Source: Chitinophagaceae bacterium (lineage in GTDB: Bacteria; Bacteroidota; Bacteroidia; Chitinophagales; Chitinophagaceae). Taken from it: a stretch of DNA of 64,000 bases. Below the pieces are notes generated by a model that worked only from the letters and a program-made list of their open reading frames with translations, did no database searches and had not been told where the DNA came from. This document shows, piece after piece, positions 4,235 through 45,766 of this stretch (the stretch's first letter is position 1; every line of letters begins with the position of its first letter). Location of the stretch: the NCBI GenBank assembly GCA_027486835.1, contig JAIXOJ010000007.1:1-64000 (forward strand). Reading direction: 5' to 3'. Both the position numbers and the translations under genes were made by a program.

Positions 4235-6670
4235 GTGCAAAAGGAAATTAATAAGATTGCAGAACATGGCATAGTTTGGTATGCTAAAAAATTACTCGAA
4301 AGGGCTGAACATCCTACCGATATTAATGATGCTGTAAATAAAGTTGCTGGTCTCTTAATTGGCTTCAAGGATTCTCTAATTAGAGAATTCTATACCAATG
4401 AGATACTTGACAACACAAGCATAAAGAAAGCGAACTTAAAAAATGCCCTATCAAGGCTTGATAAGGAAAAAGAAACGATTGTTATTACCGAGGATACGAA
4501 TCTTCGCCTGCCTAAATGGGCTGATGCAGATAGGGTATATAACCACCGAATTGACTGGCGTGAAAATGCTGGATTACTAACAGGATATTGGAGTCACGAG
4601 AATAACCAATCATTTACACAAGTAACAAACTTCATTATAAAACCACTATATATCCTAAAAAGCATTAATGGTGAGACAAAAAGACTTGGATTGCTTCATG
4701 TGCATGGTAAAGAGGATCAATTAATAGAAATTCCGTCTAAAGCCTTTAATTCTGTTGAGTTTTTTCAAACGATGACAAAGGATAGGGGGTATTACAAAAC
4801 AGAAGATAGTTTTTCAAAAAGTTCATTAAACCGCATATTCTCAGCTATTGGCGATAAATTTTATGAGGCCGAAGAATTTTCTTACTTAGGGTTTCAACCA
4901 GAAGGCTTCTTTGCCTACTCAAATGCCGTATTTGTAAATAATCAATTGTCTTATTGCAATAAATATGGCATGGTTCAGGTCGGGAATAATCATTTTTTTT
5001 CGCCATCTTCTTCAGAAATTAATGATAATAAAAGGACAGATGAAGAAGGAAAAAGAATTAAGGATGGCAATATTTATTTCAATGACAAATCATTAACCTA
5101 TAGAGAAGCTCCTGTTAGCTTTGAAACCTATTGCCAGCATCTAGTTAAGATGCATAAAGATGCAGCCTTACCTTTAATATGCTTTGGATTAGCTACATTA
5201 TTTAAAGATTTTATCGTCCGGTACGAAAAGATGCCCTTGCTATATGGCTATGGTCAGGTTGAATCAGGAAAAAGTACCTGGGCGGAAGCATTATATTGGC
5301 TATTTTTTGACCACGACAGCAAAGCTTTCAATCTTAACCAAGGAACTGTGTATGCTTTCTGGAATAGGATGGGAAGATTCCAGAATTGCGTGCAATTATT
5401 CAATGAATTCGACGAAAATTCAAACAACCCTGAATTTGTTCGCGCATTCAAAGCCTACTATGACCAAGAAGGTAGAGACAGAGGAGCTGGTGTTAAAGGA
5501 AAGGTTGAAACCCAAGAAGTGCGTTGCGGCGCGATCATTATTGGTCAGGTATTATCTACCCAAGGTGATGGAGCTTTACCCACAAGAAGCATTGCTGTCG
5601 AATTCACCAACAAAGGAGGTCGGACGGCAAAAGACAAAGAGTTATTTGATACTTGGAATAAATGGATTATTAAAGGAATGGGCGGCTCTTTGATTGAACC
5701 TCTTAAGTATAGACGCTACTTTAAAGACAATTTTATTACGAAATTCAATGAAAATTTAAACAAGCTTAAACAAACAATGACAGACAATGGCGATTCCTTT
5801 AAGGAAAGGATTGCCAAAAACTACTGCATTCTTTTAACTGCAGGGAATATTATTGGCGATAAAATGAATCTTGGATTCTCCTATGAATCATTATTTACCT
5901 ACTGCCTTAATGGTATCATCAACCTGAGCAAGCTTATTGGCGAAGTTGACAACTTGGGTATTTTTTGGAAAACTATTGATTTTCTTTATGAAAAAGGGGA
6001 AATAGCAGAAGGTACCGATTTCAGAATAGAAACGGAAATGAAGGTCAAAAAAAACAGTGGAAAAGAACCACAGTTTATTGAATACAATCAACCAACCGAT
6101 ATACTTTATTTACGCCTTTCCAAGATCTATTCATTGTACGCACAATCTTATCGCCAAACCAGCGGTAACAAACCAATTAATCAAAAGACATTAGAGTCTT
6201 ACTTCCTTAGCTGTAGAGCTTATATCGGTGTAAATCCTAGCATGAGCTTTAAGGCTCCTGGTGGTGGTAGGCAAATAACAAGTTGCTTCATGTTTAAATA
6301 TTCCGAATTGAGTCTTAACCTTCAAAAGTCATTTGAACCGGAGGAAGAAACTAAAAAAGACTTTAACCAGAAATGCTTTATAACTAAGTCTGCAGAAGAA
6401 TGCGAATTGCACTCGGGAAAACACTTCTTAGCATTTACAGTAGGTTATTATAACGAAAATGCTTCGCTAGGTATTGATGCCTTACATGCAAAGTGTTTTA
6501 CAAACCAACTAGCACTGATTAATCGGCTAACAAGAGATAAAAACGTAAGAATAAAAGGGAAACTGCTTGAAAAAGTATCCGGCTCTTACACTACAAGAAC
6601 CATCGATTGCTCTTCCATCACAATCGTTAATGAAGATGGCATGGAAGAAATCCTAGACGTCGTTTTTTAA
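4235..6670 (+). CDS. Large P-loop ATPase, probable phage replicative helicase (DUF927-like)
   Basis: 811 residues with a GTG start at 4235. A Walker A motif (YGQVESGKST) lies near residues 337-347, with an acidic strand about 45 residues later (QLFNEFDEN) that fits Walker B. An arginine in LPTRSIAVEF could be the finger. The N-terminal third has no recognised motif, and the C-terminal 200 residues may bind DNA. Gene order primase, small ORF, P-loop ATPase matches phage replication modules. The core resembles DUF927-type helicases of phages and mobile elements; this is family resemblance by eye. Substrate polarity cannot be told. Confidence 0.7.
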   Translation: MQKEINKIAEHGIVWYAKKLLERAEHPTDINDAVNKVAGLLIGFKDSLIREFYTNEILDNTSIKKANLKNALSRLDKEKETIVITEDTNLRLPKWADADRVYNHRIDWRENAGLLTGYWSHENNQSFTQVTNFIIKPLYILKSINGETKRLGLLHVHGKEDQLIEIPSKAFNSVEFFQTMTKDRGYYKTEDSFSKSSLNRIFSAIGDKFYEAEEFSYLGFQPEGFFAYSNAVFVNNQLSYCNKYGMVQVGNNHFFSPSSSEINDNKRTDEEGKRIKDGNIYFNDKSLTYREAPVSFETYCQHLVKMHKDAALPLICFGLATLFKDFIVRYEKMPLLYGYGQVESGKSTWAEALYWLFFDHDSKAFNLNQGTVYAFWNRMGRFQNCVQLFNEFDENSNNPEFVRAFKAYYDQEGRDRGAGVKGKVETQEVRCGAIIIGQVLSTQGDGALPTRSIAVEFTNKGGRTAKDKELFDTWNKWIIKGMGGSLIEPLKYRRYFKDNFITKFNENLNKLKQTMTDNGDSFKERIAKNYCILLTAGNIIGDKMNLGFSYESLFTYCLNGIINLSKLIGEVDNLGIFWKTIDFLYEKGEIAEGTDFRIETEMKVKKNSGKEPQFIEYNQPTDILYLRLSKIYSLYAQSYRQTSGNKPINQKTLESYFLSCRAYIGVNPSMSFKAPGGGRQITSCFMFKYSELSLNLQKSFEPEEETKKDFNQKCFITKSAEECELHSGKHFLAFTVGYYNENASLGIDALHAKCFTNQLALINRLTRDKNVRIKGKLLEKVSGSYTTRTIDCSSITIVNEDGMEEILDVVF

Positions 6671-7679: not shown

Positions 7680-8171
7680 ATGAATAATAGACTTATTTTA
7701 GGTGCATTAGCATCAGGAAAAACAACATTATTACAAAAAACTTTTGAAAATTTTACGAAGGTCAATAACAAAGTAGTATGGGCAGAATTTAAGGGTATTG
7801 AATGCTCCATTTTTTTAGAGCCTTTACATTGGAGAGGAATTCCACAAGTTCTAAGCCCTTTAATTTTAAAAAATTACAATATCATATGCATTGATGAATG
7901 TGTTAGCATTGAGCAACTGAATTGGGTTGTAAAACAATATAAAAAAACAAAGTGTATTTTTTTTATTGCCGCACTCATTGATGAAGATATTATTCCTTCA
8001 AAAATTAAAAAGCACTTCAAAATAATTAATTTAGGTTCAGAATCTTACATCCATACAAAAGGAACAGTTCTTCAAGAATTCAATGAAGGTTTATTGAACT
8101 TAAAGGAAGGTTTATCGAACTTAAAGAAGGCTTATGATAAATATGGTGTAAACAGAAATAAAATATCATAG
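7680..8171 (+). CDS. Small P-loop NTPase
   Basis: 163 residues. Walker A at residues 8-16 reads GALASGKTT, and an aspartate-containing strand (NIICIDECVS) near residue 77 fits Walker B. The size and N-terminal P-loop suggest a minimal ATPase such as a phage DNA-handling or kinase-like protein. The C-terminus contains two nearly identical 7-residue units (EGLLNLK, EGLSNLK) produced by a 21-bp duplication (8085-8105 and 8106-8126). Function beyond nucleotide binding is unknown. Confidence 0.6.
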   Translation: MNNRLILGALASGKTTLLQKTFENFTKVNNKVVWAEFKGIECSIFLEPLHWRGIPQVLSPLILKNYNIICIDECVSIEQLNWVVKQYKKTKCIFFIAALIDEDIIPSKIKKHFKIINLGSESYIHTKGTVLQEFNEGLLNLKEGLSNLKKAYDKYGVNRNKIS

Positions 8172-9308: not shown

Positions 9309-9648
9309 GGGGTGTCAAACCTACATCGACCTACCAGAACCTACAATTTAGGCCATTTTGTAGGTTCTGGTAGTGGCTAAAACATACAATTATGATCCTG
9401 ATTTTAGCCAAAAAAGAGGCTTTAAAGCAAAATATACCTTTAACAGCAAAAAACTAAAAAAAGCCGTCCTACACGTCCTACACGTCCTACAATCAAAAGC
9501 AGAAAGCACAAAAGCGTTGATTATCAATATAGTTTTAAAGAAAAAAAATTAAAAGTTCTCTAAAAAAGATGTAGGTCGATGTAGGTCGGTGTAGGTTTCA
9601 CATCCCCTATTTTGTTTTTTTTGATGGTGTTGTAGGACGTGTAGGACG
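9309..9648. repeat. Iteron-like array of CCTACA/TGTAGG repeats, candidate origin or partition site
   Basis: This non-coding 340 bp holds four clusters. A+ (9320-9345) has CCTAC(A/C) three times at exact 10-bp spacing. B+ (9465-9491) is three exact copies of CGTCCTACA. A- (9570-9599) is three 10-bp units starting TGTAGG. B- (9631-9648) is two exact copies of TGTAGGACG. A- is the inverted form of A+ including flanks (GGGG..TGAAACCTAC), and B- the inverted form of B+. Inside A+, a perfect 16-bp inverted repeat (9331-9346 with 9358-9373, 11-base loop) adds a hairpin. Iteron clusters between replication and late genes suggest an origin, partition or regulator site. Confidence 0.75.
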
Positions 9649-9691
9649 AGATTTTTAAAAAACACACTGCCTACAGGAAAAAATTACACAA

Positions 9692-9732: not shown

Positions 9733-10248
9733 ATGGGAAAGAGTGGAACTCGTGTTTTTTCTGTAAAAATTCCTACGGAGGTGCATCTCAAAAAGTTTGC
9801 TGTTGCCCAGCTGGGCGCGCCAATTAAATTGAGCAATAAAAATCTATTCGGTACTGTTATTTTGAGCTTGCTTCAAAAGCCTAAAATGACTGTTGGCATC
9901 AACAAACAAAAAACAGGTAGTATTCAAAACAAGCTGAAAAACGAAATAATATGCGTTGCTCCATTTTCTATAATGAAGGATGTTGGTACTGATTTGACAA
10001 GTAATCAGGTGATTCAAATCAATAGGTTACTAGATCACTTGTTTATAGAGACACTCAGTCTCTATGTTGCCAAAAACACAGTGGCTACCAAGAGGCAAAA
10101 GGGCATTCAAGATGCCATCATTAGTTTTTGCGAGCTATACCAAATCGTTCTGGATGTGGATATTAATTACGAAGCCTTAAAAAAAGCCGAGTACCGGCTA
10201 CGCACTGGGAAGAAAAATAACTCTTTCGTTTGTCCTTTTCTCAATTAG
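9733..10248 (+). CDS. Hypothetical protein, possible late regulator or repeat-array binder
   Basis: 171 residues, basic (many K and R), not recognised. It is the first gene after the repeat array and has a lysogeny-type operator box just upstream. Basic character and position suggest a DNA-binding role, for instance at the array or in late gene control, but no helix-turn-helix can be assigned with confidence. The next gene starts 7 bp after its stop. Confidence 0.55.
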   Translation: MGKSGTRVFSVKIPTEVHLKKFAVAQLGAPIKLSNKNLFGTVILSLLQKPKMTVGINKQKTGSIQNKLKNEIICVAPFSIMKDVGTDLTSNQVIQINRLLDHLFIETLSLYVAKNTVATKRQKGIQDAIISFCELYQIVLDVDINYEALKKAEYRLRTGKKNNSFVCPFLN

Positions 10249-29662: not shown

Positions 29663-31935
29663 TTCAACTAAAATACAACGGCGAGTTCATTGACCTTGCA
29701 AGTGGCCAATCATTTGAGTTTCAGCGGGAAAACCCGCTTTTTTTAATTGAAGATTTGTTCAAGGAGTTCTCTACTCCAATTACCATACCCTATTCGGAAA
29801 ACAACGCCAAGAGTTTAGGCGATAAATTTTTCTTTCAGCCCATCAAACACCAGGTTAAACTAGATGTGGAACTATGGCAAGAAGGGGGATTTTATATGTT
29901 GGCAGTTTTAGTGATCAATAAATCCATTGCATCTACTAACAGCAAAGCCAGCTCCCTTTCAGGATTCTTATTAAGTGGCCTCAGCATTGTGCTCAATAAG
30001 CTAAAGGATAGAAAGGTTTGCACGATGGAAATTGGCGGTACCATAACAATGCCTTTCACTACCATCAATATAGCGGACGGCTCAAACGGATACCTGCAGC
30101 AATTTTATAGAACCAGAAATAACAACGATAACTACATCGTTGCACCAGTGCGCAACGATGGATGGACAGAAGAGGAAAGCAAATTCCCTTATAGACATTT
30201 TGGCACATTAAAAGATGTACTTTACTATAATGGCATTGTCAATAATTTCTTTTCTCCAGATGCTCCGTCAGACCCTGGCCAACATTTAAGAAGTATCTTT
30301 TTTTTCGCAAGTCTTTTCCCTAGATTAAAGTATGTGCTTGTTGAGATTTTCAGAGAATCCGGATTTATATTGGATACCACCGACTTAGATGGCTCTGGAT
30401 GGGAAAACATCTTTTTGTACAGCGGGAAAATTGTAGAACTAGGAACAATAATTTGGGACGTTTACATTGGCTTTCAGTATGTACCTAGCATTAAATTTAG
30501 ACTTGCTCAGTTTATTTCACCAGAAGTAACCTGCAAGCAAATGATACTAGAGCATTGCAAGCGTTATGGCTGGTCGGTAATCCAGATTAATGAGACGACC
30601 TTTAAGCTGATTGCCCTGAAAAACTACAATAGTTGGACAGTCAAAGACTTTACCAGGTACTGTGGTGCTACCATTGATCAAGACTTTTCCATGTATGGTA
30701 GGCAGATGGCTTTTAAAACAAATTTTCCTGAATCGGAAGAATACAACACAAAGGATAGCTCTAATACTACTTACGTCCTAGAGCCATCAGTAATCAGCAG
30801 ATCACAGCTCCCTACACCTTCTGCCGTTTTTGATAGTAGCAAAATATTTTGCTACAACGATAATGTGTACTACAAAATAGGGTTGGACAGTTCCAACAAC
30901 AGGGTGTGGGAAAAAGCTGAAGACAACATTTATAATTACGAGCCTAAAGATTTTACTGAAAGTGTTGAGAGTGAGGTAAGTACCATGGCCGTTAACGAAA
31001 GCCAGTTCATGCTGAGAGAATACTATGACGGCATTCTTGAGAGCAATTATCCAGACTTACCACTTACAGGGTATTTCCCAACTTGCAAGATTGGCAAAAA
31101 CAAAAATTGGGGTATCCGTAATCTCCTATTCGTAGGGCTATGGAATGTTACAGGTGGGAGGTTAGGACCTCGTAGCTATCCTTTGCTTTCTTGCACGCGC
31201 AACCTGCCGGATGGTACAGATGTTCGGACATGGAGCAATGTGTTTTCGCACGTAAAAAATGGGATTGATTACGGGATTATCCCTTATTGGTTTAAAACCT
31301 GGTTGAACGCTACCAGCTTGCAAAATGTGGAGGAATTTAAACTTGATCTACCCTTTCATGAACTTAAACAATTGAAATGGATTGATAAAATTTCCATTCA
31401 AAACATTGAGTTTGTTATTAAGAGTATTATAGAGCCGGTACCTTATAAAGGGTTTGTGAAAGCTAAGGCGTTGCGCTTATTGCTTGACCCATCAGACGCT
31501 ACGCCATTGGAAAAAACAACTTTCTACCTTACAGCAGAATGGCAAGAACCTGTGAATGCTCCCAATGAGATAGAACCGCCTTATAGTATTTTGCTGACTA
31601 ATATCGTTAGGGCAAACCCTGTTGTTAAGGTGTTTGCTAATGCCGAAAAAACGAAGTCCGCAATAGTGGACAATTTGCTTGTCACAATAAGAATAAGGAC
31701 GTTGCGAGATAACAACGACGGCACATTTACTATTATCTCTATGAATGATTACCAATTTTTGCTAACCGGCAGCGAAAAGAATCTAGCTACATCTGCATTG
31801 GACGCGGTTAATTCTTCTGTTCCATCCATTGCGGCAACCAGTGATGGAAAATATGCTCAAAAATGGCGGCGAATTGGCGAAGACTATACCACCTATCTTA
31901 TCCTACTCCCTAGTACCGATTACGTGGTACTATAA
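29659..31935 (+). CDS. Probable tail tip / receptor-interaction protein
   Basis: 758 residues, beta-rich. The N-terminus (LFKEFSTPITIPYSENNAKS) resembles a module found at the start of tail proteins in Bacteroidota phages. The C-terminal 180 residues (from about AEWQEPVNAPNEIEPPYS) look like a distinct immunoglobulin-like module. It ends the rightward late block. Function inferred from size and position. Confidence 0.55.
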   Translation: MIQLKYNGEFIDLASGQSFEFQRENPLFLIEDLFKEFSTPITIPYSENNAKSLGDKFFFQPIKHQVKLDVELWQEGGFYMLAVLVINKSIASTNSKASSLSGFLLSGLSIVLNKLKDRKVCTMEIGGTITMPFTTINIADGSNGYLQQFYRTRNNNDNYIVAPVRNDGWTEEESKFPYRHFGTLKDVLYYNGIVNNFFSPDAPSDPGQHLRSIFFFASLFPRLKYVLVEIFRESGFILDTTDLDGSGWENIFLYSGKIVELGTIIWDVYIGFQYVPSIKFRLAQFISPEVTCKQMILEHCKRYGWSVIQINETTFKLIALKNYNSWTVKDFTRYCGATIDQDFSMYGRQMAFKTNFPESEEYNTKDSSNTTYVLEPSVISRSQLPTPSAVFDSSKIFCYNDNVYYKIGLDSSNNRVWEKAEDNIYNYEPKDFTESVESEVSTMAVNESQFMLREYYDGILESNYPDLPLTGYFPTCKIGKNKNWGIRNLLFVGLWNVTGGRLGPRSYPLLSCTRNLPDGTDVRTWSNVFSHVKNGIDYGIIPYWFKTWLNATSLQNVEEFKLDLPFHELKQLKWIDKISIQNIEFVIKSIIEPVPYKGFVKAKALRLLLDPSDATPLEKTTFYLTAEWQEPVNAPNEIEPPYSILLTNIVRANPVVKVFANAEKTKSAIVDNLLVTIRIRTLRDNNDGTFTIISMNDYQFLLTGSEKNLATSALDAVNSSVPSIAATSDGKYAQKWRRIGEDYTTYLILLPSTDYVVL

Positions 31936-31963
31936 AAAAGGCCGTCCAACTGGACGGCCTTGG
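31936..31963 (-). terminator. Terminator for the leftward pair
   Basis: AAGGCCGTCCA (31938-31948) pairs with TGGACGGCCTT (31951-31961). The A6 stretch at 31934-31939 gives a U run only for leftward transcription, so it terminates the 32824-31968 unit. Confidence 0.75.
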
Positions 31964-31967
31964 TAAC

Positions 31968-32204
31968 TTATAATCTGAAAAGCCACTTGTACTCACCTTC
32001 TATAAGGTGGTAGGTGTATTTCATCTCAGTCATCAGCTGGAAGCATTCTGATTCCGAAAACACCGTTCCGCAAAGCCTGCTCACCAACCCTATTATTTCC
32101 TGTGTAGTGTAGCAATCGGTATAAGTATTTTCATCTGCAGGGCTAAACGCTGATACGAATGAAGTGAGAATCTCAAAGTTCTTTTCTGGTTCTTTTTCTG
32201 CCAT
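31968..32204 (-). CDS. Hypothetical protein of the leftward pair
   Basis: 78 residues, acidic, not recognised. It starts 11 bp after the RadC-like gene, runs leftward against the late genes, and ends at a terminator. Possibly a partner of the RadC-like protein. Confidence 0.5.
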   Translation of the reverse strand: MAEKEPEKNFEILTSFVSAFSPADENTYTDCYTTQEIIGLVSRLCGTVFSESECFQLMTEMKYTYHLIEGEYKWLFRL

Positions 32205-32215
32205 AACGTGTGGGC

Positions 32216-32824
32216 TTACAATTTACCATTATCTAGATACTGTCGCATGTTCAACGTTTCTTGACGGTCGAAAGTGATCAATAGCTCAAAGTGGTTGAAT
32301 AGCAACGCCTTACACGCTTCAGTCATTAGTTTGAAAAATTCGATGTAGGGCTTTTCTGGGTCTACATACTTTTTTTTATCCTGTGCCTTATCCTTGCACA
32401 TGATGCCCATCCAAATTTTGTCAGCACCACACAAGAGCGCCGCTCTCATTACTAGCTGGACATTAACACATTCTTCCGCATCAAAAGGAAGGAACTCAAA
32501 TTCACACCATCCCTGAACTTCATCGAGTAGGTTTAAATACACGACACAAATGGTTTCCGGCGATACATGATCTACGTACTTGCCGAATAGCTCGTACATG
32601 TACATTTCTACATCTTCCTCTCTTGATAGGTAGATGCCATCACGAACGGGGTTGTGCTCAATCTTCACATGCTGATTCTGAATGGCAGTTGCAATCTGCA
32701 TAGCGGTTGCACCGTGGCACATCTCGGTTAACCTTCTTTGCCTCCACAATGAAGACATTAATTCACGCTGAACTGGTGAGCCGCCATTTGGCGCGCTTTC
32801 TTGACTGTTTGTTGGCTGTAACAT
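32216..32824 (-). CDS. Degenerate RadC/JAB-like protein
   Basis: 202 residues from the ATG at 32824 (a TTG two codons upstream lies in the U run and is less likely). Residues about 95-195 follow the RadC MPN pattern: ICVVYLNLLDEVQ, MRAALLCGADKIWMG, FFKLMTEACKALLFNHFELLIT. But where RadC has HNHPSG the protein reads CKDKAQ, so the metal-binding histidines are lost. It would be a non-catalytic binding protein. It runs against the neighbouring blocks, from its own promoter, through a highly structured leader. Confidence 0.5.
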   Translation of the reverse strand: MLQPTNSQESAPNGGSPVQRELMSSLWRQRRLTEMCHGATAMQIATAIQNQHVKIEHNPVRDGIYLSREEDVEMYMYELFGKYVDHVSPETICVVYLNLLDEVQGWCEFEFLPFDAEECVNVQLVMRAALLCGADKIWMGIMCKDKAQDKKKYVDPEKPYIEFFKLMTEACKALLFNHFELLITFDRQETLNMRQYLDNGKL

Positions 32825-32828
32825 AAAC

Positions 32829-32921
32829 AAAAAAATAGAGCAGCACTCCGGGCGCCAACAAACAGATTCTTTGGAGAATTTGAAGCGACGGATTGACTAC
32901 CGTCTCCCGGAGCGTTGCTCT
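32829..32921 (-). ncRNA. Structured leader, three-way junction plus U run (attenuator-like)
   Basis: Read leftward, a 16-bp arm (32921-32906) pairs with 32852-32837: 14 Watson-Crick pairs, one wobble and one mismatch. It encloses two hairpins, GACGG/CCGTC (32904-32900 with 32891-32887) and ATTCT/AGAAT (32879-32875 with 32870-32866, 4-base loop), forming a three-way junction. The last stem is followed by A and then seven U, then the ATG at 32824. This is the architecture of a transcription attenuator or ligand-sensing leader. The start codon lies 13 bases after the stem. No known riboswitch class was recognised. Confidence 0.55.
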
Positions 32922-32970
32922 TATAAAAGTTTAAAAAAATAATCATTGTAAAATCAGTTCGTTGGCGGTT

Positions 32971-33004
32971 CAAATGTATAGGCGTATTAACCAATCCACC
33001 AAAA
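32971..33004 (-). promoter_or_regulatory. Leftward promoter for the RadC-like pair
   Basis: On the minus strand, TACATTTG (32978-32971) matches the Bacteroidota -7 consensus, and TTTTG (33004-33000) sits 21 bp upstream as -33. Predicted start near 32965 leaves about 140 bp of leader containing the three-way junction. Confidence 0.6.
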
Positions 33005-33104
33005 TATCAAAATAAATTGATTCTTGCAAAATCTTACAGCCTGATAAGATTTTCTTGTAAAATGCTGCTTTTTGGTTGTTTTCGTCTTGTATTTTGTCGG
33101 TGAG

Positions 33105-33133
33105 TTGTGCGTGGGGTTCGGTAGATATTTTTG
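33105..33133 (+). promoter_or_regulatory. Rightward promoter for the packaging operon
   Basis: TATTTTTG (33126-33133) matches TAnnTTTG, with TTG at 33105-33107 and an 18-bp spacer. Downstream a perfect hairpin, GCGGACA with TGTCCGC (33169-33186, 4-base loop), ends 11 bp before the ATG at 33198. Confidence 0.55.
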
Positions 33134-33197
33134 GAAGTATTATAAAGGGTTGTGGTTTGTCCTTTCACGCGGACAGTTGTGTCCGCAGCTTTGGGAT

Positions 33198-34711: not shown

Positions 34712-35222
34712 GCAAGACCATATCGATGCTATTGTTAGACATATTGAATCAGATGGCGAATATGAACTAACTGAATTCCAAAAAGAATTGATGTTTAGGG
34801 CTCAATTTGCGGATGAAAAATGTAGAGACCCGAAAAATAGCAAGGAACAAATTGCCAACTTTATCAAAAACAGATTTGAAGTATCAAGGGATACCGCATT
34901 TAGGATTATTGGCTATGCTGAAGCTATTTACTCTACCTCCAGACCGCTGCATAAGTTATATGAAATTCAAAATAGAATTGAATACCTAAAAAAGAAGATA
35001 CATGAATGCTATGTAGATAAACTTTTTTATGAAGCAGCTCAACTGGAAAAGGTACTGTTTAACTATTACAAAATATACCCAGAAGTAAAGGAAAGGCGGT
35101 CACCGAAGAATATCACCTACAACATCCAAATGAATTTCCAAGAACCTGAAATTTCCGTTAATGAGGCTTTGGATAATGCTGATGAAATCATTAAAAGTAT
35201 TGAGGATAAAGAACAATGGTAG
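34686..35222 (+). CDS. Terminase small-subunit-like protein
   Basis: 178 residues from the ATG at 34686 (a TTG 30 bp upstream is possible). Helical, with a DNA-binding-like N-terminal half (VSRDTAFRIIGYAEAIY) and a coiled region near ELQNRIEYLKKKI. It overlaps the large terminase start by 7 bp. Small terminase is inferred from position and size. Confidence 0.6.
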   Translation: MDLPAKRYKQDHIDAIVRHIESDGEYELTEFQKELMFRAQFADEKCRDPKNSKEQIANFIKNRFEVSRDTAFRIIGYAEAIYSTSRPLHKLYEIQNRIEYLKKKIHECYVDKLFYEAAQLEKVLFNYYKIYPEVKERRSPKNITYNIQMNFQEPEISVNEALDNADEIIKSIEDKEQW

Positions 35223-36805
35223 CACTCGATACAATTGAAGTAAACCTCCATGATTCTCAAGCATTAATTCAGATAGTTAATGCCAATATCACTATTGCAG
35301 CTTGGCAAAGGGCGGGTGGTAAAACAGGTGGTGGTATTGGACCACGATTAGTGCATTTGTCGGAGGTGATGCCACGTAGCCAAATCTTACTGTTTTCGGA
35401 TACCTACGAAAGGCTGATGGACAGAATTGTACCCAACATCACCGAATTCCTCACTAATAAACTAGGGCTGATTGAGGGTGAAGATTATGTCAAGTACAAG
35501 AAGCCTCCAGACAACTGGGATAAACCAAATGTTCCATTGGATAAGTACGATAAAGTAATCTCTTTTGCTACTGGGATGGCATTGTGCCTAGTGAGCTTGA
35601 GAGTGGAAGGGTCGGCCAATGCCTTCAATGCTCAGGCCGCAATAGGTGATGAGGTTAAATACTGTGATGAAACCAAAATAAATACAGAGGTATTGCCTGC
35701 ACTGCGTGGTGCGATTGAGAAGTTCGGACATTTACCAGAGTATATGTCCGTCTGGATGTTTACGGACAAATTTGGTCCAAAAATAAAGTGGGTTTTAAAG
35801 AAGAAAAAACTCATGAACCAGCGTGCAATTGACGCGATTATCCATCTACAGTTGATTGCTTTTAGATTGGAAAAAGAAATGCTCACGTTAAAGGAAAGAA
35901 ATAATCCTAAAGCTTATTACGAAACCAAAATAGAGCATGATCGTGTAGTTTCAAAAGCTAATGAAATACGCAAAATAGTTTTGTACTATAGCGACATGAA
36001 GCCCTACGAAAACAAAAAAACAGTAGGTGAGCGGTATTTCAGGACTCAAAGGCGCAACTGTAAGTCTCAGTTCGAATACAACGTGTCTATTCTTAATCAT
36101 GACCCCGATAAAGCTGAATTCTGTTATTATCCTAGCCTTACGAGTAGAAGAAAGTATCAGGTGCAGGATAGAGCAGACTATAACCCTACATTACCCTTCT
36201 TTGTAGCGGCTGATTATAACTTCAAAATATTCCCACTACCAGTAGCGCAACATGATTACTTGCCTAATAGCATGAATAAAACCTTCAACATGGTTGATTC
36301 CATCTTTACGCTATACCCTGATGGTATGGAAGATGGCATTGCATTGTTATGCGAGAAGTACAAGGATCATCAAAAGAAGGTAGTTCATTACATTTATGAT
36401 CACACAGCCATTGCCAGGAATCCACTTAAGACAACCTACTTTAGTGAGTTCATTAGAATGTTTGAAGTGCGCGGATGGCATGTAATACCTCACTATATTG
36501 GGTCAGCACCAGACCATGATATTAAGTTTGAAATAATCAAGCGTATACTAGAAACAGAAGGAGATAACGCAGTCATGTTCAACGAGATAGAAGCAGCTCA
36601 ACTACTGGTAAGCATGGAGAACACCCCTGCCAAGCTATCTAAAGGCAAGACAGAAAAAGACAAGTCATCTGAAACAAACCCAGATTGGCCACCCGAGGAC
36701 AGCACTCACTTTGGCGATGCATTCGATATGCTAGTCTATGGTGTATATGAATTAGACCTACTCAACTATAATAGCAGCAACGACACAGGCATCATGATAC
36801 AATAG
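35216..36805 (+). CDS. Terminase large subunit
   Basis: 529 residues. N-terminal ATPase: an atypical Walker A (WQRAGGKTGG) near residues 31-40 and Walker B AAIGDE at about residue 143. C-terminal nuclease part: FFVAADYNF near residue 333 carries the first metal-binding aspartate, and HFGDAFDM near the end a later one. These are the signatures of the packaging motor that cuts and translocates DNA. The usual deviating Walker A of large terminases supports the call. Confidence 0.85.
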   Translation: MVALDTIEVNLHDSQALIQIVNANITIAAWQRAGGKTGGGIGPRLVHLSEVMPRSQILLFSDTYERLMDRIVPNITEFLTNKLGLIEGEDYVKYKKPPDNWDKPNVPLDKYDKVISFATGMALCLVSLRVEGSANAFNAQAAIGDEVKYCDETKINTEVLPALRGAIEKFGHLPEYMSVWMFTDKFGPKIKWVLKKKKLMNQRAIDAIIHLQLIAFRLEKEMLTLKERNNPKAYYETKIEHDRVVSKANEIRKIVLYYSDMKPYENKKTVGERYFRTQRRNCKSQFEYNVSILNHDPDKAEFCYYPSLTSRRKYQVQDRADYNPTLPFFVAADYNFKIFPLPVAQHDYLPNSMNKTFNMVDSIFTLYPDGMEDGIALLCEKYKDHQKKVVHYIYDHTAIARNPLKTTYFSEFIRMFEVRGWHVIPHYIGSAPDHDIKFEIIKRILETEGDNAVMFNEIEAAQLLVSMENTPAKLSKGKTEKDKSSETNPDWPPEDSTHFGDAFDMLVYGVYELDLLNYNSSNDTGIMIQ

Positions 36806-44108: not shown

Positions 44109-45245
44109 TTAGCTAGAAACACCGATGTCTGGGTAATTAATATTTACATCGTTCATTACGTCATCAATTCCTAAGCTTTTGAAATACCCATCAGTAATAG
44201 AATAATCGGAATGCCCCATCAACATACTGATAAATTTCATTCTGACCCCATTGAAATACATCATTACTGCCCCTGTATTTTTCCAACTATACAAGCTGTA
44301 ACCTTTTGGCAAATCCAACGCTTCCATATATACCTTATGGTTATTGTATAACTTATTTTTTGAAATAATCTTATTGCTTGGATGCCCTTCATTAGAAAAC
44401 AAGTAATAATGATCTGGATAGCCATCAATGTGAGCTGCTAATCTCTTTTGCAATACTGCTGGAATTGGCACAAACCTAAATTTACCAGTCTTGGCACTTT
44501 CTGCCCTAACCTTAAATTTCCATTGCTTCTTATTCTCTCCCCTATTGCCAATGTCTGCAATAGTGAGGTTCGCCATTTCGTCACCAGGGCGAATGAAACA
44601 GTAAAATTGAATTTCACAGCAAAGCCATAACTGTGGATCAACTGGCTCAATCATTTCCTGAAGCTTTTGCTGTAGCTCAGTGCTAAACCATGATTTTGTA
44701 CTTACAGACTCTCGGAGCTTGTTGGTATTATCAAAAGGATTGAAAGGGAACTTCTCATTTTTTACTAACTCAGCAAAGAAACTCTTAAGGTGCCTACGAT
44801 AGCCATTGATGGTAGTGTTAGACAAGCGGCCACCCTTGGATACGTAGCGAAGGAAACGCACTCCAGTATCTTTTTTCAAGGTACTTTTTTCTACTTCTCT
44901 AAACCAAAAACAAAATGTCTGCAGCTTAGACTTGTAGCCAGTGACGGTTTTGTACTTCTTGCCCTGCATTCGATCTTCTACAACCTCGCTGAGCATACTC
45001 ACTACTTCCGTGACATTATTGCTCTTAGGGCAATATTGCTCACACTCTCGACATAGGTCTAACCCTGCCTTAATCCGTTCATCCTTATCCTGAATTGAAT
45101 TCAGGTTGGGACTTCCATACTTCTTTAATGGCTTACCGCCATTCACGTTGGGATACTCAACGTACCAAGTCTTACTCATATCCCCATCGGTAGGATATAA
45201 CCTTGGTTTACTCATGTCTCTAGCAGACTCTTTTTTCATCATCAT
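44109..45245 (-). CDS. int: Tyrosine-type site-specific integrase
   Basis: 378 residues. N-terminal SAM-like arm/core-binding domain, then a catalytic domain: CFIRPGDE with the first Arg, SAKTGKF with Lys, YSWKNTGAV in place of the usual HxxR box (a Lys-type variant seen in Bacteroidota integrases), LMGHS, and nucleophile Tyr in DGYFKSLG. It lies beside attR, the standard place, and acts on the ssrA 3' end. Arm sites flank both cores. Excision would need a partner; no clear excisionase was identified. Confidence 0.92.
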   Translation of the reverse strand: MMMKKESARDMSKPRLYPTDGDMSKTWYVEYPNVNGGKPLKKYGSPNLNSIQDKDERIKAGLDLCRECEQYCPKSNNVTEVVSMLSEVVEDRMQGKKYKTVTGYKSKLQTFCFWFREVEKSTLKKDTGVRFLRYVSKGGRLSNTTINGYRRHLKSFFAELVKNEKFPFNPFDNTNKLRESVSTKSWFSTELQQKLQEMIEPVDPQLWLCCEIQFYCFIRPGDEMANLTIADIGNRGENKKQWKFKVRAESAKTGKFRFVPIPAVLQKRLAAHIDGYPDHYYLFSNEGHPSNKIISKNKLYNNHKVYMEALDLPKGYSLYSWKNTGAVMMYFNGVRMKFISMLMGHSDYSITDGYFKSLGIDDVMNDVNINYPDIGVSS

Positions 45246-45297
45246 GGTATGTGTATTTAAAATTTTAAAATTGTTTAGGCAATCTTAAATACTACTC

Positions 45298-45350
45298 CCA
45301 TAGAGTGAATTTTAGTCGGGTCAACTCTATAATTTGAGCTTATAGAGTTG
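45298..45350. promoter_or_regulatory. Right-arm integrase-type sites, three ACTCTAT boxes
   Basis: Three copies of the ACTCTAT box: ATAGAGT at 45300-45306 (part of CCATAGAGT at 45298-45306), ACTCTAT at 45324-45330 and ATAGAGT at 45342-45348. The last two form a perfect 11-bp inverted repeat (CAACTCTATAA with TTATAGAGTTG, 45322-45350). They lie between integrase and attR and mirror the left-arm copies. Confidence 0.55.
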
Positions 45351-45386
45351 GGTAAAAAGCTGAAACCCTTACTGGCAAAGGGTTTC
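45350..45386 (-). terminator. Phage-supplied substitute terminator for ssrA
   Basis: GAAACCCTT (45362-45370) pairs perfectly with AAGGGTTTC (45378-45386). Reading leftward from ssrA, the stem is followed by GCTTTTTACC, a short U run. It stands in for the original ssrA terminator displaced to 941-973. Confidence 0.6.
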
Positions 45387-45395
45387 AGGTATTTT

Positions 45396-45411
45396 GTGGA
45401 GCTGAGGGGAG
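45396..45411. other. attR core in the ssrA acceptor end
   Basis: The same 16 bases as 984-999. Here they form the discriminator, acceptor 3' strand and start of the T stem of tmRNA, so the site reforms a complete ssrA after integration. Confidence 0.9.
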
Positions 45412-45766
45412 TCGAACCCCTGTCCAAACAAATCCGCCATAAGCCTTCTACATGCTTAGTTTATTATTAATTGTAGGGCAAATACAGGAAATAAACAAAC
45501 CGATATTCACCTTAGCTGGATAGTCTTTTGCAGCAAGCACAGCCTATTGCTACAGCAGCCCGTATTTATTTTGAGTCGGCGGGAGAACTTGGTAACAGGC
45601 CAACCTGTTCTGCGGCCCTAATGACTGGCTAATCTCTGATTAGGCAGCCATGGCATACGTAGTATTGCCATTTGAGATTTGAATATTCAGATTTAAGTGC
45701 TAATTATCCAACGCACTGCATGCTTATACCTACAAAGAACTTTGCTGTCGAAACCAGTACAGCCCC
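45397..45766 (-). ncRNA. ssrA: tmRNA (ssrA)
   Basis: A 370-nt gene reading leftward. The 5' end GGGGCTGTACTGGTTTCGACAGC is the standard tmRNA start, and its GGGGCT pairs with AGCTCC at the 3' end; the T-arm GGTTCGACTCC is present. CCA is not encoded (the sequence continues CAA), so it is added later. The tag frame at 45669-45640 reads GGC AAT ACT ACG TAT GCC ATG GCT GCC TAA, giving (A)GNTTYAMAA. It rescues stalled ribosomes with SmpB and marks the peptide for proteolysis. It is the prophage integration site and remains intact. Confidence 0.95.

Follow-up and report, generated by a model that had tools for sequence, protein, structure and literature searches.

What is the strongly folded RNA encoded immediately ahead of a small gene cassette in a Chitinophagaceae prophage, and do related phages keep it as a control element? 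The window (the whole 64,000-nt stretch of DNA analysed) comes from a 6.4-Mb genome in 219 contigs and consists in large part of phage genes, including one for a minor tail protein and one for a large terminase to which 48 of 50,697 phage records are similar, every one at less than 60% identity. An integrase-like gene lies next to a tmRNA gene (44109–45766), and the prophage may sit integrated at ssrA. Elsewhere in the window (9424–9659), CGTCCTACA repeats on both strands, able to form long stems, surfaced in our pseudoknot scan. The folded RNA belongs to a cassette of ~1.05 kb on the minus strand, opposite to the late-gene direction, in the order promoter, leader, a 202-aa orphan ORF, a 78-aa ORF (m78) and a terminator-like site (Table 1); a terminator scan of 31850–33150 gave two sites versus 1.1 expected.

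Table 1. Positions in the window of the cassette elements and of the phage and host genes mentioned in the text.
Feature	Position	Strand	Remarks
Bacteroidota-type promoter	32971–33004	−	−33 TTTTG (33004–33000), 21-nt spacer, −7 TACATTTG (32978–32971)
S1a, 5' strand of stem 1	32950–32967	−	CGCCAACGAACTGATTTT; start coincides with predicted transcription start
X, 5' strand of stem 2 (the 16-bp stem)	32906–32921	−	Fold and repeat search
Internal hairpin	32887–32904	−	GACGG-TAGTCAAT-CCGTC; present in MFE folds
S1b, 3' strand of stem 1	32853–32870	−	AGAATCTGTTTGTTGGCG; also complementary to C element
X', 3' strand of stem 2	32837–32852	−	Abuts S1b, 0-nt gap
A-U7 run after X', terminator-like	32829–32836	−	From the sequence
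Start codon ATG of first cassette ORF	32824–32822	−	From the sequence
C element	32805–32816	−	GCCAACAAACAG; just inside the ORF; 12/12 complement of part of S1b
First cassette ORF, orphan	32216–32824	−	202 aa; no family match
m78, winged-helix-like protein	31968–32204	−	78 aa; AlphaFold pLDDT 82.9; homologues behind the leader in ten relatives
Intrinsic-terminator-like site at cassette end	31938–31961	−	10-pair stem, 7 G-C, T-rich tail
Large terminase	35216–36802		Phage gene
Integrase-like gene	44109–45245		Adjoins tmRNA
tmRNA	45394–45766		Rfam scan of the window

The initial annotation had described minus-strand positions 32921–32829 as a three-way-junction leader with a 16-bp closing stem and two internal hairpins, followed by A-U7 and a start codon. 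The segment indeed folds far better than expected by chance, with a minimum free energy (MFE) of −38.9 kcal/mol, whereas 200 dinucleotide shuffles gave −22.8 (sd 2.95) and none did as well (z = −5.47); the two 16-nt arms are 88% complementary in a repeat search, both hairpins are present in the MFE fold, the second being less regular than GACGG/CCGTC, and the A-U7 run and ATG lie where described. What changes is the role of the stem. Judged from the pairing potential of the sequence, the 16-bp stem (X:X') is better read as stem 2 of a more extensive H-type pseudoknot, S1a–X–S1b/X', in which S1a pairs with S1b with one mismatch plus G-U pairs (repeat search) and the leader starts ~45 nt earlier than first described, at the predicted +1. 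Within the 180 nt ahead of the ATG, the highest-scoring pseudoknot reached 70, versus 34.2 (sd 3.9) in shuffles (0/200 as high).

The X:X' stem (−27.7 kcal/mol in the window) followed by A-U7 has the GC-rich stem and U run of an intrinsic terminator, an activity that we predict. Our terminator scan permits loops of 3–8 nt and did not pick X:X' because its loop is far longer; the match that it returned there (32857–32841) uses the A-U7 tail with a different, 6-pair hairpin. S1b has a second potential partner in the C element, whose complementarity has P = 0.001 against 1000 shuffles, and the 16-nt core of S1b forms duplexes of −19.5 kcal/mol with S1a and −20.2 with C. Such a second partner is significant in four of 13 leaders (the window, L025, L023b and L031; L numbers denote the loci compared below), and third copies across all scan matches numbered 11 versus 5.0 by chance, a small excess.

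The promoter that had been proposed upstream, with −33 and −7 boxes, fits what is known of the phylum. Passages of PMC6847099 give TTTG/TAnnTTTG as the consensus of the Bacteroidota primary sigma factor, place the −7 box of F. johnsoniae at −12 to −5 and describe the −33 motif as much less evident. The window boxes agree with this consensus, predicting a +1 at ~32966, and the −7 box ends 3 nt before stem 1. A TAnnTTTG box 3–4 nt ahead of S1a occurs in 10 of 14 leaders, versus a background frequency of 0.00037 per position in leader-holding loci, a count that includes L033 and L036, whose selection already took the box into account, L073 and L074, found via a model including the box, and the window, whose box was named beforehand. 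Five relatives (L017, L018, L021, L024 and L025) came to light before either a promoter or a pseudoknot filter was applied, and four of them have the box at this spacing. In the eight relatives with 4 nt between box and S1a, S1a starts at the predicted +1; with 3 nt, as in the window and one L023 leader, it begins one base earlier. A −33 TTG at 19–21 nt is present only in the window, L024 and L036 among the ten leaders with a box. The view that a structured, terminator-like leader precedes a phage gene is supported, and its transcription is probable.

The gene behind the leader had been labelled RadC-like, a label that profile searches did not support: the first ORF has no Pfam or NCBIfam match up to E 10, the RadC/JAB profile included. 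Nor did it match PHROG at E 0.01 or PADLOC at E 1; PDB sequences gave one meaningless match (E 1.4), a single-sequence AlphaFold model was unusable (pLDDT 38), and searches of viral contigs, 393 other family genomes and phage records found no homologue, leaving its own genome only. The second ORF, m78, is more informative. Its AlphaFold model, built with five sequences, shows a helix-strand-helix-helix-hairpin arrangement (pLDDT 82.9). Winged helices (Oskar and Marf1 LOTUS, arginine repressor, Fur-type) make up most of its best PDB fold matches, whose E values lie between 0.045 and 0.1 and never reach 0.001. Pfam gave weak matches only, the commonest being HTH_33 (four of 11 members, best E 0.0071), a PDB profile search gave nothing below E 0.2, and PADLOC none at E 1. 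Because of the winged-helix fold matches and the weak HTH_33 matches, a nucleic-acid-binding role of the modelled m78 protein is likely. Homologues were found in 10 of 394 family genomes, the two weak and broken ones (G081 and G178) carrying stops and no recognisable leader, and the L017 and L033 copies had no match in phage records; the L017 and L018 homologues are ~30% identical to the window m78.

A large-terminase search found matches in 11 of 394 family genomes (own genome included, some just fragments), and a terminase-alignment search gave 35 viral loci (some distant) and four named genome loci. In the related phages, whose terminases are 29–58% identical to that of the window, the elements are ordered promoter box, S1a, X, S1b, X' and start codon. 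This order is found between the preceding late gene and an m78 homologue in L017 and L018, and before m78 also in L021, L024, L025, L033, L036 and L041; two such structures in L023 and one in L031 lie ahead of ORFs other than m78. With L073 and L074 added to these eight, m78 is the first ORF behind the leader in ten relatives, and the linkage extends to the window, where m78 is the second ORF of the cassette. L022 has m78 without a leader (82/200 shuffles reach its score). The start of S1a lies 120–143 nt from the ATG in 11/11 leaders, the pseudoknot is 100–144 nt long, and the X:X' energy in the ten leaders other than that of the window ranges from −14.7 to −20.6 kcal/mol. At least five T follow X' in 9/11 leaders, the window included; the U run is absent in L018, short in L024 and missing or short in L023b, and X' overlaps the AUG in L018. 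The core relatives share a short conserved AAU-type motif after X, and a MAFFT alignment of seven leaders has TAnnTTTG, GCC.AC, a AAUCCGUC-like stretch and GT.GGC in common.

Several loci show peculiarities of their own. L023 contains two scored pseudoknots (8020–8142 and 9317–9478) and a third structure recognised by eye (~10110–10240) in one late region, ahead of ORFs unlike m78. L073 and L074, at two places in genome G058, are leader-plus-m78 copies whose 3' leader halves are near-identical and whose 5' halves have diverged; one S1 pair differs on both sides between them (C-G to T-A), and the L074 m78 copy has an in-frame stop. The contig L061 (CAIOXK010000028.1), titled Candidatus Nomurabacteria, encodes a terminase with 59% identity to this phage group of Bacteroidota, which may reflect a binning error. 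Searches for further copies added none: L033 leader DNA had no match in phage records, the only close relative of L033 m78 in viral contigs was itself, and three DNA pattern searches of viral contigs returned, respectively, four stretches (two known leaders and two chance matches within an open reading frame), three (two known leaders and one chance match) and nine (three known leaders and six stretches with pseudoknot scores ≤39, no model match and no convincing leader). Stop-codon readthrough of the upstream gene was also considered and rejected on inspection of the sequences, as the distance to the upstream stop varies and the window has no late gene upstream on that strand.

Could the pseudoknot nevertheless be a coincidence? 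We scanned 46 sources (scan 1; 1,213,612 bases, both strands counted) for a pseudoknot with TAnnTTTG near S1a. At a score ≥52 there were 11 matches versus none in one shuffled set, or seven places, window included, without four duplicate contigs, and at ≥44 there were 13 versus 4 in the shuffled set. With a start codon required as well (scan 2; 31 sources), a score of 52 and a perfect box gave seven matches versus a mean of 0 in three shuffles. Looser criteria do not discriminate, because with one box mismatch a score of 44 gave 25 matches versus 16.3 shuffled and a score of 40 gave 55 versus 55.3. Considering only the 180 nt before the ATG, 9/13 regions beat 200/200 shuffles (those of the window first ORF, L017, L018, L021, L024, L025, L033, L036 and L041), of which L033, L036 and L041 had been selected by the pseudoknot scan. 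Among the six relatives picked by gene order alone (L017, L018, L021, L022, L024 and L025), five beat all 200 shuffles and L022 did not. The weaker regions of L073 and L074 were reached by 7/200 and 3/200 shuffles respectively.

The pairing itself has been kept while the letters changed. In 11 leaders anchored at the junction, pairs occupy 82 of 88 cells in S1 and 77 of 77 in X, versus partner-permutation means of 60.2 and 45.3, and the observed values were reached in 0/5000 permutations, counts to be read with the bias that X is located through its pairing and that L033, L036 and L041 were found via a pairing filter; each X pair shows at least two standard pair types. For the six leaders found without the pairing scan (the window, L017, L018, L021, L024 and L025), 11/5000 permutations reached the observed value for each stem, and with the model set's eight core leaders this happened 8 (S1) and 5 (X) times in 5000; the 180-nt shuffles allow for the freedom of locating pairs, which the partner permutations do not. 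The compensatory changes expected by the initial annotation in Bacteroidota prophages are thus present in relatives of the same architecture, and the part of that expectation concerning close homologues of the window leader was not borne out, none having been found. We conclude that the knotted leader, kept in related phages by matching mutations, probably does act as an RNA control element, one whose kind is absent from Rfam.

Whether the window leader belongs with the others is a separate matter, examined with R1, a sequence-plus-stem-1 covariance model of six relatives with the window left out, which pairs S1 only and scores X and X' as letters. None of the four R1 matches at E up to 10 was the window leader. 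Over 23 other loci it gave three matches, the best (E 0.82) at the L031 leader and the other two (in L023 and in L037, its duplicate; both E 3.1) away from any leader. Because it also missed the leaders of L023, L025 and L041 there, R1 covers the core group alone. In large runs with stricter filters it matched 1/395 phylum genomes, a training source, and 5/394 family genomes. Four of the five had served as training sources; the fifth, G058, was new and held two copies (E 3.7e-13 and 1e-12), both followed by an m78 ORF. The X and X' letters of these copies are identical to those of L033 and were scored by R1, so they add m78 linkage and no new evidence for X:X'.

Since R1 misses the window, the window leader is grouped with the others by its architecture, its linkage and the statistics of its own sequence. 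We also weighed the reading that the window holds just a strong terminator-like hairpin of the usual sort, which finds a pseudoknot partner by coincidence and has nothing to do with the relatives' leader. It would account for the failure of R1, for the position of the window X, which lies upstream of the conserved AAUCC/AAUCCGUC-like stretch and not directly before it, and for the pseudoknot-free energy minimum of the whole leader (−41.1 kcal/mol, from a tool that handles nested folds only), which holds X:X' and omits S1. We consider it quite unlikely given the pseudoknot score that none of 200 shuffles attained, the promoter box at nearly the same spacing as in the relatives and the m78 linkage. 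With the order S1a–X–S1b–X', a gap of 0 between S1b and X' and a position before the start codon, the window leader is, as far as its sequence allows it to be placed, similar to the others in architecture and in its partner gene, and not a member by sequence model.

The interleaved repeats might alternatively be sites acting at the DNA level, such as operators by the promoter or recombination sites, rather than RNA. An S1a-like sequence does recur at the promoter, inverted inside the leader and near the ATG in some leaders, and the cassette is inverted: because the m78 homologues of L017 and L018 are on the same strand as the terminase, and the window m78 on the opposite one, the window segment (31968–32824: leader, orphan ORF and m78) is inverted relative to its relatives. 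No long inverted repeats flanking this segment were found when looked for, and the two interleaved stems, with their G-U pairs, their changes on both sides and a junction of 0–2 nt, fit RNA pairing, so that we regard DNA sites as highly improbable. In L033 and L041 leader and m78 lie downstream of the terminase, and so the pair changes place. In the window, the minus strand between the two ORFs (32225–32202, TAAATTGTAAGCCCACACGTTATG) resembles a remnant of the −7 box and stem-1 start of the canonical leader preceding m78; the stretch ahead of the window's own m78 is at chance level in the pseudoknot test (115/200).

Computation shows the order of the elements, their statistical significance, the pairing conserved among relatives, the promoter position and the m78 linkage; transcription, termination or repression, and action in cis are what we infer. 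With moderate confidence, we take the RNA for a 5' leader that acts in cis, in the manner of an attenuator, on a phage cassette complete in itself, running from promoter and leader through the orphan and winged-helix ORFs to a terminator. Host RNA polymerase would probably read this cassette in the lysogen. With S1a at the start of the RNA, the 5' end would be tied into stem S1, and X could pair with X', the strand that immediately follows S1b and lies a little ahead of the start codon, completing the pseudoknot. X:X' would be the OFF state, acting via termination at the U run or, in the case of L018, by masking the AUG. In the window, the C element would compete with S1a for S1b, and as C and S1a are about equally stable partners of S1b, the read-through mRNA could mask its own start region. 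The m78 protein is our first candidate for moving the switch, and autoregulation is a guess.

A free-standing small RNA acting in trans in the lysogen, with S1 at +1 and its end at X:X' and the U run before the ATG, would leave the ORF dependent on read-through. This is unlikely, even if the predicted +1 falls on or within one base of the start of S1 in 10/14 leaders, the U run reaches right up to the ATG in several and the length varies as little as 100–144 nt, because L018, L024 and L023b have a short U run or none and because 11/14 leaders, a biased count as several were found through m78, are in m78 transcripts at 120–143 nt from the ATG, a position unneeded in trans. The cis-acting leader is preferred mainly because U run in most leaders and AUG covering in L018 fit a shared core with two outputs. 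Ribosome-mediated attenuation, in which translation of a short upstream ORF decides whether X:X' forms, could draw on the at least one upstream ATG in 11/11 leaders and on the 62-codon uORF that in the window runs from +22 through the leader. It is very unlikely, given that neither the position nor the length, frame or peptide of the uORF is conserved in these 11 leaders, a few close relatives excepted. On the same comparison a conserved leader peptide was rejected.

As to an ON state of the cis-acting leader, when the nascent RNA is folded, a hairpin further upstream takes up much of X in most relatives. This anti-X hairpin has a combined P of 0.0035 versus shuffles over nine leaders, is significant on its own (P < 0.05) in L021 and L036, and is not so in the window (P = 0.82), which is only suggestive of a general ON state. 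The wider proposal of a new phage RNA-switch class, with a pseudoknot starting at the first base, a second stem that is mostly a terminator and in others an AUG lock, and a lysogen-expressed cassette controlled by its own winged-helix protein, is tentative, and we hold it to be rather doubtful. The window would then carry a variant with the start region (C) and the RNA 5' end as rivals for one strand.

The initial annotation had recognised no known class at the leader, and this stands. An Rfam 15 scan of the window at the gathering threshold found the tmRNA only and nothing at the leader, and a scan of L017, L018, L021 and L024 at E up to 1 gave two weak matches, neither at a leader (L017 2273–2347, plus strand, and 4795–4886, minus strand). 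The literature covered, namely titles and abstracts with passages of the surveys PMC2864571 and PMC8040213, does not describe the element. The leader's particular architecture and partner gene are new to the sources searched. The leader can be tested directly in a cultured host, since predicted promoter, start site and protein partner are in hand, no Rfam family matches and the relatives covary; Limnovirga soli KCS-6 carries copy L017. PMC6847099 describes Bacteroidota mRNAs as having no Shine–Dalgarno sequences. If both outputs are real, one RNA core would drive different outputs, a terminator or a covered start codon, in phages of a phylum of this kind.

Among described RNAs of the phylum, HMP_4078 is a 109-bp candidate motif from Bacteroidetes near phage integrase genes in the passages of PMC8040213, set beside our leader by description only. 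Flavo-1 (RF01705), which according to passages of PMC9723704 coincides with several 5' transcribed regions, is likewise a structured RNA of Bacteroidota, but it has no window match at the gathering threshold, and its one weak match (L017 2273–2347) is far from the leader. The STAXI motif, in the passages of PMC2864571, is mainly a pseudoknot RNA repeated at least twice near genes for DNA-handling proteins, a likeness in structure and neighbourhood; here, in contrast, there is one pseudoknot per leader. The Rfam scans gave no STAXI match.

Type III toxin–antitoxin systems (ToxIN) have the order promoter, pseudoknot RNA, terminator-like site and small ORF, with a short pseudoknot unit in tandem repeats. 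The window has the same order, but its leader has no tandem repeats (a direct-repeat search of 32600–33100 gave two two-copy families, neither tandem), a pseudoknot of 100–144 nt instead of a short unit and no toxin-family match. A type III antitoxin RNA or known anti-phage system was rejected on the lack of tandem repeats and of a Pfam (E 10) or PADLOC (E 1) match for the first ORF. Phage T4 gene 32 has an autoregulatory leader pseudoknot and a nucleic-acid-binding product. Ours is likewise a leader pseudoknot in a phage mRNA with the gene for a nucleic-acid-binding protein, here a predicted one, whereas phage group, fold size and protein differ and autoregulation is guessed. Promoter-proximal RNA switches are a well-known general kind, among them intrinsic-terminator attenuators and riboswitch platforms, whose promoter-proximal leaders hold competing pairings with a terminator as output. 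The present leader differs from these in having no known aptamer (no Rfam match) and in an OFF stem that would be half of a pseudoknot, its other stem starting from +1; it resembles them in its promoter-proximal position and competing pairings, here with a predicted U-run terminator in most leaders and a covered start codon in L018.
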